From the IMG/VR virus record IMGVR_UViG_3300046522_000517, positions 1 through 37,678 of that record: a DNA stretch of 37,678 nt. The stretch is one strand, 5' to 3'. The position numbers and the translations under genes are program-made. This document shows, in pieces, positions 1,903-21,600 of the stretch; position 1 is the first letter of the stretch; each line of letters opens with the position of its first letter. The notes below the pieces were generated by a model, which saw nothing but the letters and a program-made list of their open reading frames with translations, was not told the origin of the DNA and did not search any database. The DNA comes from a virus.

Positions 1903-2148
1903 CTATAGATCTGCTGCGGGAGGAGTCGCAGTCCCCCGAAGGTATGCCCAGTCAACGTCGGGACGAAGATCCTCGCAGCGCACCTTTCCCTCGACGAGTT
2001 TTTCGATAGTGGGGCAGTGCTCTGCCGGCACGCGACGGCCAGGCAATTTCCACTGCCCTACGGCGCCCTTCGTCACTCCAAGGTGTTTCGCCAAAGCCTG
2101 CATCGAACCGACAATGGCTATGACGGTGTTCAAAGGTGAGTTAGTCAT
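1903..2148 (-). CDS. Cro/YdaS-like HTH regulator
   Basis: The 81-residue product (MTNSPLNTVIAIVGSMQALAKHLGVTKGAVGQWKLPGRRVP...) matches small YdaS/Cro-type HTH proteins: one HTH in residues ~8-35 with the typical GAVGQWK recognition helix and RRVPAEHCPTIEKL. A GTG at 2157 could add three residues; the ATG at 2148 has a GAAG purine run six bases upstream and is preferred. The gene is divergent from the CI-like repressor across about 100 bp of promoter/operator DNA, the standard cro position. It probably represses the cI promoter and starts the early lytic programme. Confidence 0.82.
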   Translation of the reverse strand: MTNSPLNTVIAIVGSMQALAKHLGVTKGAVGQWKLPGRRVPAEHCPTIEKLVEGKVRCEDLRPDVDWAYLRGTATPPAADL

Positions 2149-2251
2149 GATCTTCACGAAAAGTATGCTTGAGTCGAAGTCTAGTTTTTCTATACTTTCA
2201 AGTCAAGTTTTTCTGTCCCAAAATGGTTTAGAAAACCTATACGATGTTCGG
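2149..2251. promoter_or_regulatory. Divergent cI/cro promoter-operator region
   Basis: Rightward: TTGAGT (2169-2174), 16 bp, TATACT (2191-2196), a good sigma70-type promoter for the repressor gene. Leftward: TTGACT (2206-2201 on the minus strand), 17 bp, TAGACT (2183-2178), pointing at the cro-like gene. The 9-mer AGTTTTTCT occurs twice, at 2183-2191 and 2206-2214, 23 bp apart, and overlaps both promoters, so it is a candidate operator half-site. CTATAC occurs at 2190-2195 and 2237-2242. Promoter assignments are by eye. Confidence 0.6.
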
Positions 2252-2656
2252 ATGGAAATTAAAGATGAGATCGCCGCCTGGGTTCGAGCGGCTAGAAAAA
2301 GTGCAGGACTGTCTGGCGAAGCGCTGGGCGGCAAGCTTGCGCTTGAGCTGAGAACCGATAGAGGAAATACAAAAGGGAACATCTCCCATTGGGAGCTGGG
2401 CAAGCACCAGCCATCACTAGCTCAACTACTGGCGATCAGCAAGATAACTGGATACCCGCTCCCAGCCTCGGTCGAGCAAAACGTCGATGCCACTCGGGCA
2501 GGGGGCAATGCTGCAAAGCTCAAGGTAGACGCAGCACCAGGGTATGAGTTCTTCCTTGACCACATAAGTACTGCAGTGGCGGAGCGAGATGTGCCGCCAC
2601 ACATTCAAAGTGCGATTATCACCTTGCTAGACACGTGCCCACCGAAGAGGCGGTAA
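2252..2656 (+). CDS. CI-like XRE-family repressor, short form
   Basis: This 134-residue protein starts MEIKDEIAAWVRAARKSAGLSGEALGGKLAL. Residues ~8-70 form an XRE/CI-type HTH, with NISHWELGKHQPSLAQLLAISKITGYPL as the second half. The C-terminal ~60 residues contain no S24/LexA peptidase signature (no Ala-Gly cleavage site or Ser/Lys dyad seen), so it is unlikely to be inactivated by RecA-stimulated self-cleavage. The frame is open upstream to 2009, but that stretch overlaps the divergent cro gene; the ATG at 2252 lies just after the operator region. As the divergent partner of the cro-like gene it is the likely lysogeny repressor. Confidence 0.8.
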   Translation: MEIKDEIAAWVRAARKSAGLSGEALGGKLALELRTDRGNTKGNISHWELGKHQPSLAQLLAISKITGYPLPASVEQNVDATRAGGNAAKLKVDAAPGYEFFLDHISTAVAERDVPPHIQSAIITLLDTCPPKRR

Positions 2657-7231: not shown

Positions 7232-7657
7232 TCAAGCCTGCTTCGGCACTGCCTGATTTTTTGCTATCTCAGCACTTTTTAACGATGCCTTTGCAATGCG
7301 AAGCACGTCAGCAGCATCGTCTGACGTAAAGTCAGCATCCAGGTCGTAGTCGGCCTTCTTCCGGAAGGCTCGCAATCTAGCCAAGTTTCTCGCAACAATC
7401 CCTGCCTCTACTCGGCCAGGTCGCTGCGCGCGCCCCCAGCCCGACATAGCATCGATTACTGCTTGATGCGAACTTTTCCCCTTTTTTGCAGCGTCAGCTA
7501 CGTGGAGATCAGGAGGCAAAGAACCATCTGCTGCATGTAGCACTGCGTAATACGCCCTACATGCAGAAGTGCGCAGCGAAATTTCTGGCAAAGGTTCGCC
7601 ACTTGGCTGTAGCAGTTGCTCAGCAATACTAAAAAAATCTGAACTAGTGCAACTCAT
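7232..7657 (-). CDS. HEPN-like small protein (UPF0332-type), second gene of pair
   Basis: The ATG at 7657 overlaps the TAA of the upstream TPR-like gene (TAATG), giving 141 residues. The helical pattern fits HEPN/UPF0332 proteins: SLRTSACRAYYAVLHAADG (the R..s..RAYYA.lH signature of helices 1-2), a disordered-looking loop, then RNLARLRAFRKKADYDLDADFTSDDAADVLRIAKA. The last part matches the R..R..ADYD block seen in this clan. The classical RNase motif Rx4-6H is not obvious; residues around RNLARLRAFRKKADYD would be the active-site candidates. HEPN proteins are frequent in toxin-antitoxin, abortive-infection and RNA-sensing systems. The pair is read opposite to its neighbours, typical of cargo. 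Confidence 0.65.
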   Translation of the reverse strand: MSCTSSDFFSIAEQLLQPSGEPLPEISLRTSACRAYYAVLHAADGSLPPDLHVADAAKKGKSSHQAVIDAMSGWGRAQRPGRVEAGIVARNLARLRAFRKKADYDLDADFTSDDAADVLRIAKASLKSAEIAKNQAVPKQA

Positions 7658-8454
7658 TACAGCACTGACGCCCTTGCCCGGAATTTTTCGTACCCTATCC
7701 AAAAACGGTTGGGATCAAACTCCGCTACTTCGTCAAAAAGCCTCTGCCCGAGTTCAGCATCGAGCGCCTCGACCTGCTCACCAGGAGCATCAATGTCAAT
7801 GTAGTACATGAGGTAACACTCATCAAGATCGACAAGATGCCGCAATGCCGAGTATGAAACTTGATGTTTTCGCAGCACATCAAATGCCAGCCGAATGCAA
7901 TTTTGCATGAGCGTTTCGCTCATACCGCACGTCGCTAGAACATAAGCAGTATCAGAAATAACCGACGCGTCGGAGTGTTCTCGGGTTGGCGAACGCTGGC
8001 GATAGACTTCGACAAGTTCATGAGCCATAGCTATCTTCCCCGCATTGTGTGCATATTGAATGGCATTTGAAAGCAGTGTCAGGTTCTGAGGTTCAAGATC
8101 ACTAGCAATAACAGCAACATCCAAAGCTTCAGCAAACCTGCCAGTCATCTGTAACGCATTCGCATACAGGTCATACGTAAGGCTAGTTTTCTGCAGCGCA
8201 ATTGCCTTCGCGAAATTTTCCAGTATGGCGTTATCGTCCCATTCCAATAAGCCAATCTGTGCCAAGGCCACGTAGCCAGCCCAGTAATCAGCACCAAGGT
8301 ACTTGTGCACATCACGCTTGTAACGCTGCAACGTGAAGGTATCCAACCGAGACGTAAGATCTAGGTAGGGCTGAATTTCCTCAAGGATTTCTTGTATCTT
8401 AGTTTTGGGGACTGGGCGCATTGATGATTTAAGGCAAGAAACGCTGTAGAGCAA
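7657..8454 (-). CDS. TPR-like helical-repeat protein, first gene of pair
   Basis: The TTG at 8454 is used because GAGG lies five bases before it; an ATG at 8421 has no ribosome site. The 265-residue protein has repeated helical pairs that look TPR-like: DNAILENFAKAIALQKTSLTYDLYANALQMTGRFAEALDVAVIASDLEPQNLTLLSNAIQYAHNAGKIAMAHELVEVYRQ. The C-terminal part is acidic (DLDECYLMYYIDIDAPGEQVEALDAELGQRLFDEVAEFDPNRF). It is translationally coupled to the HEPN-like gene, which suggests that the two form a complex, as a sensor or neutraliser with a HEPN effector. That is inference; I do not recognise a named system. Confidence 0.6.
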   Translation of the reverse strand: MLYSVSCLKSSMRPVPKTKIQEILEEIQPYLDLTSRLDTFTLQRYKRDVHKYLGADYWAGYVALAQIGLLEWDDNAILENFAKAIALQKTSLTYDLYANALQMTGRFAEALDVAVIASDLEPQNLTLLSNAIQYAHNAGKIAMAHELVEVYRQRSPTREHSDASVISDTAYVLATCGMSETLMQNCIRLAFDVLRKHQVSYSALRHLVDLDECYLMYYIDIDAPGEQVEALDAELGQRLFDEVAEFDPNRFWIGYEKFRARASVL

Positions 8455-8802
8455 AGCTACCTCACACAGTCGAGTTCAAAGTGTAGACGATTTTTCAGCA
8501 AACGACTATCTGCAAGAAATAGGATTGATGCGAAGTTATGGGCTGAGATTGAAATGCACCCAAAAAACTTTCTGCTACGAATTTGCTACAAGCAGAGAAA
8601 AAAAGAATCGGTTCTCCTCTACGGCCGCTTGTCACTCGGTCCAGTCCATCATCGGGGCCACGCTGATGCGGCGGCCCGCGTAAGTATTGGATTTCTCTGC
8701 TTTCCCCTCTGGGGCGGCGTTGTTTGGATGCATAGCTTGTATCACTGGGTATAATGATTAATCACCTGAATTCACAACGCAGTGCTACGGATTTGCTACG
8801 AA
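8455..8802. promoter_or_regulatory. Intergenic region before int with near-identical direct repeats
   Basis: This 348 bp region carries TGCTACGAATTTGCTAC at 8573-8589 and TGCTACGGATTTGCTAC at 8783-8799, a 17 bp repeat with one difference, 210 bp apart, the second ending four bases before the integrase ATG. Each copy is itself two TGCTAC units. Such repeats next to int are candidates for integrase arm sites or part of an attachment site. A TATAAT at 8750-8755 is a likely -10 for int, with no clear -35. The rest of the gap shows no credible gene; the 66-codon frame at 8554-8754 has no ribosome site. Confidence 0.5.
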
Positions 8803-9825
8803 ATGGCATCAGTAATAAAGATCGGAGATCAATGGCGCGCCCAGGTCAGGCGCAAGGGCTTCCCGGCGGAGACGCGGACCTTCTCTACGAAGGGGCAGGC
8901 AACTGCGTGGGCCGCGACAACCGAAGCGAACATGATGGCGCTAAAGCACCAGGACGTGCGCATCATATCAAAGATGACGGTAGCCGACCTGATCGACCGA
9001 TACACGAAGGAGATCGGCGCCGTCAAACCTTTTGGCAAGAACAAGGCTGCCGTGCTGGCTGCGCTACGCATCCAGCTGGGCGAGACGCGGCTCCCTGAAC
9101 TGACGATTGAGCGGCTCACGCAGCACCTACAGTCCCGACAGAAAGCAGGCGCTGGCGGCGTTACCATCGGTATCGACCTTACTTATCTGGGCAGCGTGCT
9201 AAAGGCCGCGAAGAACCTATGGCGCCTGCCGGTAGATCCGAGTGTTACTGCAGGCGCTCGGGACAATATGAGGTACCTGGGCTTATCACCGAAGTCCAAT
9301 GAGCGCGATAGAAGACCTACTGTCGACGAACTCACCCGTCTGAAAGAACACTTTAAGGCCATCAAGCGGCAGAAAGTACCTATGCCAGACATCATCGATT
9401 TCGCCGTGTGCACTGCTATGCGCCTAGGCGAAATTATCAGGCTGAGATGGGTTGATCTCGACCAGGAACATCGGACCATTGTCATCCGAGATCGGAAGCA
9501 TCCCACGGAAAAAACCGGCAACGACCAAGAGGTACCGCTCTTGGGGGAGGCTTACGAGATCGCGATGCGGCAGCCCCGGATTGCGGGCGATGGTCGAATA
9601 TTCCCAGTAACTGAAGGCACGGTGAGTACAATTTTTCCACGTGCCTGCAGAGCGCTTGGCATCGAAGACCTGAGATTCCATGACCTTCGTCACGAAGGTG
9701 TATCGAGATTGTTTGAGCAACGCTATAGTATTGAAGAGGTAGCCCTAGTGTCCGGCCATAGAGACTGGAAGATGTTGTCACGCTATCTTCACTTGCGCGC
9801 AAAAGACCTTCATAGAAATAATTGA
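8803..9825 (+). CDS. int: Tyrosine recombinase, phage integrase
   Basis: The 340-residue protein starts at ATG 8803 (MASVIKIGDQWRAQVRRKGF, an arm-binding-type N-terminus). It has a SAM-like core-binding domain (~residues 57-145) and a catalytic domain with all active-site positions visible: Arg207 in TAMRLGEI, His293-x-x-Arg296 in FHDLRH, His319 in GHRDW and nucleophile Tyr328 in SRYLH. It would catalyse site-specific integration and excision between attP and attB. An upstream in-frame start at 8782 adds seven residues encoded by the repeat and is less likely. The next gene begins three bases after its stop. Position between early operon and late genes is the virion order. Confidence 0.93.
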   Translation: MASVIKIGDQWRAQVRRKGFPAETRTFSTKGQATAWAATTEANMMALKHQDVRIISKMTVADLIDRYTKEIGAVKPFGKNKAAVLAALRIQLGETRLPELTIERLTQHLQSRQKAGAGGVTIGIDLTYLGSVLKAAKNLWRLPVDPSVTAGARDNMRYLGLSPKSNERDRRPTVDELTRLKEHFKAIKRQKVPMPDIIDFAVCTAMRLGEIIRLRWVDLDQEHRTIVIRDRKHPTEKTGNDQEVPLLGEAYEIAMRQPRIAGDGRIFPVTEGTVSTIFPRACRALGIEDLRFHDLRHEGVSRLFEQRYSIEEVALVSGHRDWKMLSRYLHLRAKDLHRNN

Positions 9826-11677: not shown

Positions 11678-12421
11678 ATGACTTCGTTACTCAAAAAAAC
11701 GCTGTTGGTCGCAGCACTCACTGCATATGCAACCTCTAGCCTTGCTGCAGACGCGATTGATATACCTGCTTTCTCGCTTACATCTTGGTCGGCAGACTAC
11801 TTGAACTTAGTTTCCAGTAACGATAATAAGTACGTGTTCGCGGCGGCTCAATTAAATGTGGGTATGGCGGGCAGCGGTGCGTATCCCATGGAAATGCTAT
11901 TTGACGGAGCAGTCAAAGAAGGCTACCGCATCACATCGTTATCGCTCAGCGGAAAGTTCATGGCTGACGCGTGGGTGCAAACTGAGGTGCCACCCCTAGG
12001 AAACTGCAACTGCACGATTAGCTGGGTTAATCCTGGATCAGGGGGAAGTTCCGGAAACGCTGTGCTCACTGTGGCACAAGGTGGTAAGGAAGAAGTTTTT
12101 TCATATGTCAATTCCGCTGGAAATTTGAACGGTCGCATCGAGTTGTTTGAGCTTAGTTATAACCAGATCATAACGGGTGAATTTGATTTAGGGCTCTATG
12201 CTGCTGGCATGGCAGATACTCGCTACGGCTACTACACAGTAATCGACGGAGCTGGCTCATATGACATTTCGATGGGCGCCAGTGCGGAAATGAACTTCAG
12301 CGATATGAAATTGACCGTCCAGGTAGAGCAGATCTCGGCGGTGCCGGAGCCAGGTACTTACGCCATGCTTTTGGCAGGCTTGGGAATCATTAGCTTTGCG
12401 GCTCGCAGGCAACGCGCCTAA
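11678..12421 (+). CDS. PEP-CTERM sorting-domain exported protein
   Basis: The 247-residue protein has a Sec signal peptide (MTSLLKKTLLVAALTAYATSSLAA, split by eye at residue ~24), a beta-rich body with NCNCTIS and several Gly/Ser turns, and a classical PEP-CTERM tail: VPEPGTYAMLLAGLGIISFA followed by basic ARRQRA. PEP-CTERM proteins are exported and processed by an exosortase in the inner membrane; they are numerous in exopolysaccharide-forming Gram-negatives such as Oxalobacteraceae. The phage encodes no exosortase here, so it would rely on the host. Finding this between int and the late genes is unusual: host-derived cargo, or a fragment of chromosome. The body has no family I recognise. 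Confidence 0.9.
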   Translation: MTSLLKKTLLVAALTAYATSSLAADAIDIPAFSLTSWSADYLNLVSSNDNKYVFAAAQLNVGMAGSGAYPMEMLFDGAVKEGYRITSLSLSGKFMADAWVQTEVPPLGNCNCTISWVNPGSGGSSGNAVLTVAQGGKEEVFSYVNSAGNLNGRIELFELSYNQIITGEFDLGLYAAGMADTRYGYYTVIDGAGSYDISMGASAEMNFSDMKLTVQVEQISAVPEPGTYAMLLAGLGIISFAARRQRA

Positions 12422-12675
12422 TCCTTGCGGAAAAGCTCTGCCCGCATTTGCTGCATCTCCTGTACGCATGCGCATTCGTCCAACTCGCTTCGCAACACAT
12501 CCCGGATCATGCTGCATGGCCCGACAAGGTATTGATCAGCCCTAGTGACGACAGCACGTAGCCGCGCTATCTCCCACAACAATGCTGCCACGTCTCCCGG
12601 ATCCGGGGCGTGGCGACGCGCACTAATTTCGCGAAGTTGCTTTCTTGAAAGGGATGGATGGGCAAAGTTTCTCAT
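12418..12675 (-). CDS. Small LexA-controlled phage protein, function unknown
   Basis: The 85-residue product (MRNFAHPSLSRKQLREISARRHAPDPGDVAALLWEIARLRAVV...) is helical with a basic N-terminus and two Cys near C-A-C. AGGTG lies seven bases upstream of the ATG, and a LexA-type operator occupies 12687-12706, so it would be expressed upon DNA damage. Its stop overlaps the stop of the convergent PEP-CTERM gene. The N-terminal SRKQLREI...ALLWEIARLR pattern recurs in phage proteins I recall only as hypothetical. SOS control suggests a role in induction, replication, or lysis timing, but the sequence does not reveal which. Confidence 0.7.
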   Translation of the reverse strand: MRNFAHPSLSRKQLREISARRHAPDPGDVAALLWEIARLRAVVTRADQYLVGPCSMIRDVLRSELDECACVQEMQQMRAELFRKD

Positions 12676-12686
12676 AGCTTCGCACC

Positions 12687-12706
12687 TACTGTTTTTTTAT
12701 ACAGTA
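12687..12706 (-). promoter_or_regulatory. LexA (SOS) box
   Basis: TACTGTTTTTTTATACAGTA matches the proteobacterial LexA consensus in both half-sites (TACTGT-N8-ACAGTA). It ends 12 bp before the start of the leftward 85-residue gene and overlaps its likely -10 (TATACT or TATAAA on the minus strand). Confidence 0.85.
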
Positions 12707-12784
12707 TATAGCATCGTGTGCGCTGCCCGTCCAGACGTCTGCCCTCCTACGCCATCACGGTCATCGGCCTTGTAGAACCGAGCA

Positions 12785-13570
12785 TTAAAACAACCCCGTA
12801 GGCTCTGCTTGACGATCCCAGCTGTAGATGATGAGCTCACGCCGCTCGACACCTGCCCCGCCGCCGACGATGTACTGGATTGTTGTGGAGTCCATCTGGA
12901 ACGCAGCGAACGCTCGCCGGATGTCGGGGTGATCGTTAATGCTGAGAATGGCCTTTCCCTGTAGCGCGGCCATCATCGCTGCCATCTTCTCGTACTGCTC
13001 AAAACCAAATTCGACACCGTAGCCCTCGGTCTGCCAATAAGGCGGATCCAGGTAGAAGAACGTATGCGGCCGGTCGTATCGCTCAATGCACTTTGCCCAG
13101 TCGAGGTTTTCGATGTAGGCATTGGATAGACGCAGATGGGCGGCCGACAAATTTTCCTCGATCCGCAACAAGTTCACCGGTGGCGCCGTGGTCGCCGTGC
13201 CCCAGCTTTGCCCTTGTACCTTGCCGCCAAACGCGTGCTGCTGCAGGTAGAAGAAGCGCGCTGCGCGCTGGATATCGGTGAGTGTTTCCGGCGGCGTATC
13301 CTGCAGCCATTTGAAAACTTCACGGCTCGAAAGTGCCCACTTGAACTGGCGGACAAACTCCTCGAGATGGTGTTTCACGACGCGGTACAGATTGACCAGA
13401 TCGCCATTTACGTCGTTGAGAACTTCAACGTCAGCCGGCGGCCGCATGAAGTACAGCGCTGCGCCACCGGCAAAGACCTCGACGTAGCACTTATGACGCG
13501 GGAAGTTCGGAATGAGTTGGTCCGCCAGACGGCGCTTGCCGCCAACCCATGGAATGATAGGTGTTGCCAA
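12785..13570 (-). CDS. DNA adenine N6-methyltransferase (Dam-type)
   Basis: The 261-residue protein shows the D12-class (Dam/M.EcoRV-like) layout: WVGGKRRLADQLIPNFP at the N-terminus, SAM-binding motif YVEVFAGGAALYF (~29-41), and catalytic DPPY at 175-178 (FFYLDPPYWQTEGYG), with an INDHPDIRRAFAAF motif after it. It would methylate adenine in DNA, probably to protect phage DNA from host restriction or to control timing. The start is TTG at 13570 (GAGG nine bases upstream), with no closer ATG. It sits after the lysis genes, behind a structured leader of ~160 nt, as an orphan methylase without a restriction enzyme. Confidence 0.9.
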   Translation of the reverse strand: MATPIIPWVGGKRRLADQLIPNFPRHKCYVEVFAGGAALYFMRPPADVEVLNDVNGDLVNLYRVVKHHLEEFVRQFKWALSSREVFKWLQDTPPETLTDIQRAARFFYLQQHAFGGKVQGQSWGTATTAPPVNLLRIEENLSAAHLRLSNAYIENLDWAKCIERYDRPHTFFYLDPPYWQTEGYGVEFGFEQYEKMAAMMAALQGKAILSINDHPDIRRAFAAFQMDSTTIQYIVGGGAGVERRELIIYSWDRQAEPTGLF

Positions 13571-18607: not shown

Positions 18608-21600
18608 GCCTCCTCCATATGGTCTTTCGTAATGAAGCTGTCGCCGTCGCGTGACACGCGGCGAAGCACCCGCGCACCGGTCGCCGTGTTGTCCGCAGTT
18701 TCCCGCAGTGGCGTGCGCAGACTCTCCACCTCCTTTCGGAGCAGCCGCACCTCGTCGACCAGTGCGCTGTTGTCACCGCCGCCGCGCAGCATCGCGGCCG
18801 TCTGGCTCGCATTCCAGATCCTTGCAGGTCCGGTTGCCTCCAGCTCCATGCCGCGTTCGCCAACGACACGCAGGCCGCCGGCATGATCACCGCCCGTGGC
18901 ATACCCCGGAACGCCCCGCTCCTTCAGCCACTGTTCCCAGGTGCCGTTTTTCTTCGCCTCCAGTTCGGGAGCGGCAGCTTTCAGGAAGTCCGCCATCTCG
19001 CTTGCATCCACGCTGCTCCCGTAGGCACTCGTCCAGAACGCGAGGCCATCAGCATCGGCCTCGCGACCAAGTGCGGATCGATACATGTCCGACACGGAGA
19101 GATTCGTTTCTCCTGGCGCGGTGGCACTCGGCCCGGCCTTCACGGCGGCCAGCGCAGCAGACAGGGATGCAAGCGCAGCTACGACCGACAGGACGCTGGA
19201 GTTGATGCCGTTTAGCTGGTCGACCTGCTGTTGTGCCTTGGCCGCGATGTCGTCGAGGTAGGCCACATCCGCCTCATATGCACGCTGCGCGATATCTTTC
19301 TGCTTCTCCAGCGTCGCCAGCATCTGCTGCTGCGCTGTGAGCTGGCTGTCGGTCAGGTCGCCCAGGGCAGAGATATCATTCGCGGTGCGGTACAGGTCAC
19401 GCTGATAGTCCAGGTACGAGGAGAACTGCGACGATGCATCCGACTTGACCGTGTTGAGAGCCCCCTCGAGGTCGGCGGCCTTGGGCAACGGACCGCCGGC
19501 CCTCGCAATCGCCAGTGCTGCGGCGATCTTGGCCTGCGCCTGTGCTCGCTGGACAGCAGCCTGGCCAGCATCGACCATACTGTCCAAGGCACCTCGCAAC
19601 GAGCTGGACAGCGATGTCAGGTCGCTGATGGCCGTACCGACGCCATCGATGCGCTCTTCCAGCGCATCCATCGAATCCTGATACGCTTTGGCCAGTACGT
19701 CCTTCTCGCCCTGCACCGCCGCTTGTACAGCAGCCAGAGCGTCCGAGACTTTGGTTTTAAGCGCCGTACTCACGCTTTCGATTGCCGCAGCAGCAGCTTC
19801 GGCTGCAGCTTTCTCGTCCTGCAACGCATAGATCCGCTGCTGCTGCGGCCGCAGCGCTTCGTCCAGCGCCGCCAGCTCGAGTTCCCGCTGGTGCGCCAGC
19901 TGCTCTGCCGCCGTGTGGGTCAGATTGAATAGGGACAGATCCAGTCCCGCCTGCTTTTCGCGCAACGCATTCGCTTTGGTCTGCGCCTGCACCTGGTCGA
20001 ACAGCGCGCGGTTGCTCTCGTCGAGCGCCGCGCGCTGCCTGGCCAGGAGATCGACCGAAGACATGGTCAGCTGGTCGAGCTGTTGCTGCAGCCCGGCACG
20101 CTCGTCCGCGGTTGCGTTCGCCTGCGTTGCCGCCTGCACCTGGTCGAATAACGCACGGTTGCTGTCGTCAAGCGCGGCGCGCTGTTTCGCCAACAGCTGG
20201 GCGGACGTCATCGTCGCCTCGTCCAGCTGGTCCTGCAGGTTCTTCCGCTCGTCGGCGATCTCCTGCTCGGACTTCGAGAGATCTTCGGTTGCGGCATGGG
20301 TCTGCGCGAACGCCTCCTCCAGGCGCATCAGGCCAGCGTACTGCTGCGCGCCAGCTTCGGTTGCCAGCGCGCCCGAATTGACCAGGCCCATCACGGCATC
20401 CTTGAACTGGTCCCGCGTGGAAATGCCCTGCAGACCCATGGCCGCCAGCTGCTCGGTGACATACTTCTGCACCGGCGCCAGGCGCTCCGCTTCCGTCAGG
20501 AAGTTGTCGGCGAACGAACTGGTCTGGCTCGACAGCTCGTCAATGCCGCCGACCAGGTCGATCAGCCGCTCGCGCGCCGCGATACTGTCGATGCCGACCG
20601 CACCGAACGTGCCGCCGAGCGACGCCATGACGGAGTCGACGTTGGCATAATCGCTGGCTACTCGCGTCAGCGTCTCGAAGTAGCCCTCCCCTACCTTCTG
20701 GAACTGGTCCAGCCCGCTGACGCCGAATTTCGCCATGTCGTCGCCGAGCTTGGAAAACACTGCCTCGAGTGCTTCCTGGATTTCATCACCCGTCATCCCC
20801 TTGAGCGAGATCTTGCCGATGTCGATGACGAAGCTGTTGAGCCGCTTCGTGAAATCATCGCCACCAACACCGAGCAGCTTGCCAGCCTCGCCCACAGCAC
20901 CGGCCAGACCGGCGATCACCTTCGCGAACTGGTCGTTTGCTTCGGTGCCCAGCGAGGACAGCTGCGTGGCGTACTTGTCACTGTGGAACCAGCCACCGTC
21001 TTTTTTCGTGTCGGTGTACTGGCTCGCGCTCACGCCCCCGGCCATGGCTGCATCCAGCGTCGTGCGGCCGATCGTGACGCCCGTATCGAGCGTCGACACC
21101 TTGCCGCCAAAGATCGAACCGATCAGCTTCCCGACCGCGCCACCGGTGAGCTTTTCACCGATCGATGCAAACCCCTGGTACTTATTGAATGACTCCTCGG
21201 TCGATCCGATTTGGTCGGTCGCCAGTTCGCCTGTCAGCCCCGCAGTGCGGACCAGCAGACTTCCCAACCCGGACAGCGACGACTCGATGCTGCGCAGCGA
21301 TGCCAGCATGCCGGCGGTGTAGCTCAGCTCGATATCGCTGTTGTCTGCAACCAGTTCCAGCGAGCGCGCGATCGAGTCGGATTTGGCCGTCGCATCGCCC
21401 AGTACCGACCCGGTGCCCTGCGCGGCCTGCCGATCCTTCGCCGTCGTGTCGGCGCCACCGCCACCACCAATGCCGCCGATCGCGACGCCCAGGCCGGCCA
21501 CGATGGCTGCCATCGCCGCCATGCGCGGAATGGCCGTGTACGGGTCACCCTCTGCCTGACTCAACACAGCCGAGATACCCTTCGGCACCAGCTCGGCCAT

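Follow-up and report, generated by a model that had tools for sequence, protein, structure and literature searches.

The minus-strand open reading frame at 12418-12675 of the window, by which we mean the whole 37,678-nt stretch of DNA analyzed here, is a genuine gene, carried by a temperate phage of soil-type bacteria, and its upstream sequence makes it nearly certain that it is under LexA control. On balance, we think that this gene is probably a LexA-induced accessory of mobile elements in the DNA-damage response. The evidence lies in the LexA box and its conservation among relatives, host use of the same motif, the spread of the gene family over phages and plasmids, and the linkage of the family to SRAP genes. 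The response of prophages and plasmids to DNA damage, including that caused by antibiotics, is set by small genes under SOS control. To our knowledge, few such genes are known outside enterobacteria and Bacillus, and the family described here provides a testable, conserved LexA target on Burkholderiales phages and plasmids that is tied to SRAP.

LexA box and start of the small gene

On the minus strand, the palindrome TACTGTATAAAAAAACAGTA (12706-12687; TACTGTTTTTTTATACAGTA on the plus strand) is followed by GGTGCGAAGCT and then by the ATG at 12675. Each half-site agrees with the consensus at 6 of 6 bases, the spacer consists of A and T only, and the match to TACTG(TA)5CAGTA extends to 17 of 20 bases. 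This is the single exact CTGT-N8-ACAG site in the window, and the runner-up for TACTGT-N8-ACAGTA, at 20583, has two mismatches; the latter motif was found in none of 400 shuffled windows. The initial annotation had described a near-perfect LexA box 12 bp from an 85-residue frame with a good ribosome site. The box is confirmed by these counts, the frame has 85 codons as described, and the closeness of the two holds, although the gap is really 11 nt. A plausible ribosome-binding site, AGGTG (12683-12687, minus strand), lies 7 nt before the ATG and abuts the box. The hexamer TATACT (12703-12708, minus strand), which overlaps the box, is a candidate -10 element, and several relatives that have no box keep a TATACT/TAAACT-like hexamer at this place; a promoter and terminator scan returned nothing, with no full sigma-70 match. 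At four such loci (L015, L048, L054, and L071), no box is recognizable upstream and a TATACT or TAAACT hexamer is retained about as far from the start, which looks like loss of the operator alone.

Conservation of the box was assessed at the 99 family loci with usable upstream DNA by scanning for CTG[TG]-N8-[AC]CAG, with ORF starts of the same loci as controls. At 78 of the 99 loci, a LexA-type box was found no more than 45 nt from the start, compared with 65 of 4486 control starts (1.4%), and the strict CTGT-N8-ACAG form is present at 46 loci and at 36 control starts. Family boxes mostly stand 8 to 10 nt before the ATG, and a recognizable box is absent in about a fifth of the relatives. At many Achromobacter-type loci (within L034-L080), the box reads TACTGG-N8-CCAGTG. 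The matching change in the two half-sites suggests either that the palindrome is under selection or that the preference of LexA has shifted. At another locus, a small zinc-ribbon-like ORF just upstream of the family member (L101:4623-4883) carries, at its own start, a sequence resembling a LexA box.

The same motif is used by hosts of relatives of the gene. In genomes of about 6 Mb, the exact palindrome occurs four times in Pseudoduganella flava, three times in P. lurida, and six times in Massilia brevitalea, where the complete 20-mer before the relative (L091) is identical to that of the window. Directly downstream of palindromes in these Pseudoduganella and Massilia genomes are imuA, the error-prone dnaE2, and dinB (NCBIfam), which are part of the betaproteobacterial SOS core (PMC3323433), and the relative of the small gene is itself among the few palindrome sites in each genome. 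As the box is conserved across the family and the motif precedes host imuA, dnaE2, and dinB, the earlier proposal that the gene is LexA driven is supported as far as sequence permits.

The phrog_32761 family and its neighborhoods

The window protein matches the phrog_32761 profile of PHROGs v4 (E 1.2e-4), an entry that carries no recorded function, and so do all 56 of the aligned nonredundant members. Its closest relatives are from P. flava (61% identity) and P. lurida (56%), followed by proteins of Massilia and Janthinobacterium and, at a greater distance, of Achromobacter and Cupriavidus. These two identities, together with the match of all 56 members to the profile, establish the reading frame as a gene. 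Burkholderiales prophages and plasmids contain more than 100 relatives. A first alignment, which included plasmid relatives, gave 79 loci in viral contigs, and a second gave 23 loci in genomes, these being partly the same prophages as among the 79. The family is accessory, being present in 9 of 62 Massilia genomes and, with up to 16 candidates scored in each genome, in at least 7 of 300 Burkholderiales genomes. Plasmid carriers belong to Cupriavidus, Bordetella, and Achromobacter, some with conjugation genes; a degraded plasmid copy (L002) was excluded. The plasmid matches provided the bridge to the family, as single-protein searches of genome, viral, and phage collections gave no relatives, tblastn at E 1 gave no match in 50,697 phage records, and a DNA pattern combining box and leader matched nothing. 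No description of the family was found in the literature searched, which contained few subscription papers.

Conserved residues of the alignment center on LLWE-x2-RLR within a long helix, and the AlphaFold2 model of the 85-residue protein has four helices (mean pLDDT, 82), so that the product is probably all helical. Among the 56 members, Pfam found no domain, the DinI domain included, and defense-system families gave no match. Neither a PDB sequence search nor fold searches with the small protein yielded a credible relative, the best Foldseek E value being 6.5. Two sigma-factor chains, 7l7b and 8x6f (Z 3.5; 67 and 66 residues aligned at rmsd 4.3 and 3.4, respectively), and an anti-CRISPR chain, 6as3 (Z 3.0; 70 residues at rmsd 6.5), were rejected as noise, since scores at this level are expected for a small helical query.

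SRAP, the HMCES/YedK abasic-site shield, is encoded on the same strand within 600 bp of the small gene at 34 of 108 phrog_32761 loci; neighbors were scored with targeted profiles, wide clustering having been dominated by antisense frames. The enzyme forms DNA-protein cross-links at abasic sites (PMC9436759). In two Cupriavidus plasmids and one further locus (L005, L007, and L079), the order is box, small gene, and SRAP, with SRAP starting 5 to 9 bp after the small gene, while at Alcaligenaceae loci SRAP precedes it. Of the 39 phage records that contain the small gene, 10 have SRAP, always next to it: nine at a distance of no more than about 0.3 kb and the tenth at 0.9 kb. On Cupriavidus and Achromobacter plasmids, the pair occurs without nearby phage genes, once beside trb conjugation genes. 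Mapped onto the family tree, which is poorly resolved owing to few columns, the presence of SRAP changes eight times, only three of these changes being forced by well-supported branches, and the linkage is concentrated in one Alcaligenaceae clade and a few separate branches. No SRAP was found in the window, and none is adjacent in the window's own branch (three rows). Because of this linkage, damaged or single-stranded DNA is the first place to look for a target; by association, the product may act there, an argument that is weaker for the window copy, whose branch is without SRAP.

In the window, the small gene stands at the end of the late/lysis region, downstream of a Dam gene on the same strand (DNA adenine methylase, 12785-13570, minus strand; Pfam MethyltransfD12 2e-25, phrog_56). 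It converges with a tyrosine integrase gene 2.6 kb away (8782-9825, plus strand; Pfam Phage_integrase), with cargo genes between them. Dam also precedes the small gene at L021, L029, L044, and L071, and the integrase layout recurs at L011, L016, L048, L071, and L091 and in the P. lurida prophage, where integrase and cargo genes likewise occupy the other side. Here and in many Oxalobacteraceae phages, the small gene closes the late strand after tail genes, endolysin, and sometimes Dam, often facing the integrase. In Bordetella bronchiseptica pA, the small gene comes after xis, integrase, and SRAP, in that order, and faces the lysis genes, and comparison of the two arrangements indicates that the junction of lysis end and integrase end is used from either side. 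This 39-kb "plasmid pA" (L174; NZ_CP132331.1) encodes integrase, holin, lysozyme, and tail proteins and looks like a circularized phage genome. Two cargo regions of the window may be mentioned. A gene for a PEP-CTERM-tagged secreted protein, unusual as phage cargo, lies between the integrase and the small gene (11678-12421, plus strand) and overlaps the end of the latter by 4 bases. Beside the integrase, two overlapping genes (7232-8454, minus strand), one for a weakly HEPN/HepT-like protein and one for a TPR-like protein, are possibly toxin or defense cargo.

Possible roles of the product

From these features, we infer LexA binding, induction, and an action on damage or repair along the following lines. 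In a lysogen, LexA would occupy the box, overlapping the presumed -10 element and abutting the ribosome-binding site, and keep the small gene off. Upon DNA damage, RecA-driven cleavage of LexA would turn the gene on directly, with no need for the phage repressor to be lost first. The small, probably all-helical phrog_32761 protein would then most likely aid its element as a damage-response accessory, probably by acting on DNA or repair intermediates that SRAP, its repeated neighbor, also handles; as the window has no SRAP, its copy would work without one. Such a general accessory is more likely than a trigger of the window phage's own induction. Against it, the slot between lysis genes and integrase suits a phage-specific role as well, no domain or fold match supplies a biochemical clue, and SRAP is absent from the window. 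More tentatively, phrog_32761 could be SRAP's small partner in an SOS module that travels with phages and conjugative plasmids and shields the damaged or single-stranded DNA of the element or tunes the host SOS response, with the window copy as an orphan; we regard this narrower proposal as possible but doubtful.

The initial annotation had suggested an antirepressor, as in coliphage 186 Tum, on the grounds that the CI-like repressor has no visible self-cleavage domain. That premise is right. The 134-residue repressor (2252-2656, plus strand), which is divergent from a YdaS/Cro-type regulator gene (1903-2157, minus strand; Pfam YdaS_toxin 9e-26 and P22_Cro 2e-9), matches Pfam HTH_3 only, and no S24 self-cleavage domain is found anywhere in the window. 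Five phages have a related repressor, four of them full length at 71 to 81% identity. The fifth (G404; L157:3001-3783) is 73% identical over the first 74 residues and continues into an S24 domain where the window and the four other phages have a short C terminus, forming a natural cleavable/noncleavable pair. As G404 joins a related HTH to S24, the lineage of the window repressor, itself a short form, includes a cleavable repressor, and the window phage lends itself to a clean test of whether repressor self-cleavage can be replaced by a LexA-controlled gene.

An antirepressor made after LexA cleavage would bind the noncleavable repressor and free the DNA, like GfoA/GfhA or Tum. In its favor, the window repressor without S24 is close in length to the 136-residue Gifsy repressor, and, like the Gifsy antirepressor genes, the small gene has a LexA box and a location separate from the immunity region (PMC3121763). 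The small gene itself is absent from all five phages with the window-type repressor, two of which (G401 and G403) are fragments lacking late-end genes and hence uninformative about a LexA-controlled gene after Dam. Two others with short repressors (G400 and G402; 77 to 81% identity) have a different, unrelated LexA-box gene beyond Dam near the record end (L161:5401-5889, plus strand, and L162:1-450, minus strand). Its products of 149 to 162 residues share 57% identity and have no Pfam match, and a search for relatives found only these two carriers. The S24-bearing G404 has no CTGT-N8-ACAG site. This is the arrangement that one would expect if phages with short repressors need a LexA-driven gene, and it resembles Gifsy (PMC3121763). 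Since three cases with two unrelated genes cannot show this, we still rate an antirepressor as unlikely for the window phage.

For the family as a whole, we do not accept an antirepressor function. S24 proteins are encoded in 24 of the 39 phage records with the small gene, including both closest relatives, and those phages should therefore already respond to RecA. Ten of these proteins that were read out have about 230 to 360 residues, most with Ala-Gly and SMEP-type self-cleavage signatures; of seven submitted to Pfam, all have S24 and five a detectable HTH. Moreover, plasmids carry the small gene without phage repressors nearby, the gene is linked to SRAP and not to immunity regions, phages of the same repressor lineage do not have it, and none of the 50,697 phage records gave a tblastn match.

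Less probable still is an SOS modulator whose feedback, with RecA or LexA or else S24 repressors or UmuD-type proteins as the target, would tune the strength or duration of the SOS response and of prophage induction, in the manner of DinI, PsiB, and GIL01 gp7. A small LexA-repressed protein common to phages and plasmids has the spread expected of modulators, and the gene occurs in phages with cleavable repressors. On the other hand, the DinI domain was not found in any of the 56 members, whose modeled representative is all helical, and modulation overlaps with the accessory role that we prefer, differing only in its target. A late or lysis-timing function, with the gene as part of the lysis cassette and the SOS promoter merely adding early expression, is very improbable. 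The gene does follow endolysin and Dam on the late strand of the window, as its counterparts in P. lurida and many relatives follow endolysin or other late genes. In Bordetella phage pA, however, it belongs to the integrase side of the junction, after SRAP and on the strand opposite to the lysis genes, plasmid copies have no phage lysis cassette nearby, and the sequence, judged by eye, has no obvious hydrophobic signal or membrane segment.

Comparison with known systems

DinI and PsiB are small SOS modulators of chromosomes and plasmids, and gp7 of GIL01 is a phage SOS modulator (PMC4551915). Like them, phrog_32761 proteins are small, SOS linked, and carried by mobile elements, and they differ in having no DinI domain. 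With GfoA/GfhA of Gifsy-1 and Gifsy-3 and with Tum of 186, the window gene shares a small product, a direct LexA box, a position outside the immunity region, and a noncleavable repressor (PMC3121763). A sequence relation to these proteins is not detectable by tblastn at E 1 against the phage collection, short proteins diverging fast; Tum has a DinI-like domain that is absent from phrog_32761, and many phrog_32761 members are found on plasmids or in phages that have S24 repressors.

In the part of their account available to us, Aravind et al. place SRAP genes in SOS gene neighborhoods, prophages included, with polymerases, ImuB-C, Ku, ligase, and zinc ribbons as partners (PMC3765255). The small helical phrog_32761 family goes unmentioned in that part, and the window copy differs from those neighborhoods in standing without SRAP. 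Small LexA-controlled prophage genes are known as a kind, and what we did not find described in the literature searched, and report here, is the conserved LexA control of the phrog_32761 family, its distribution across phages and plasmids, and its linkage to SRAP.
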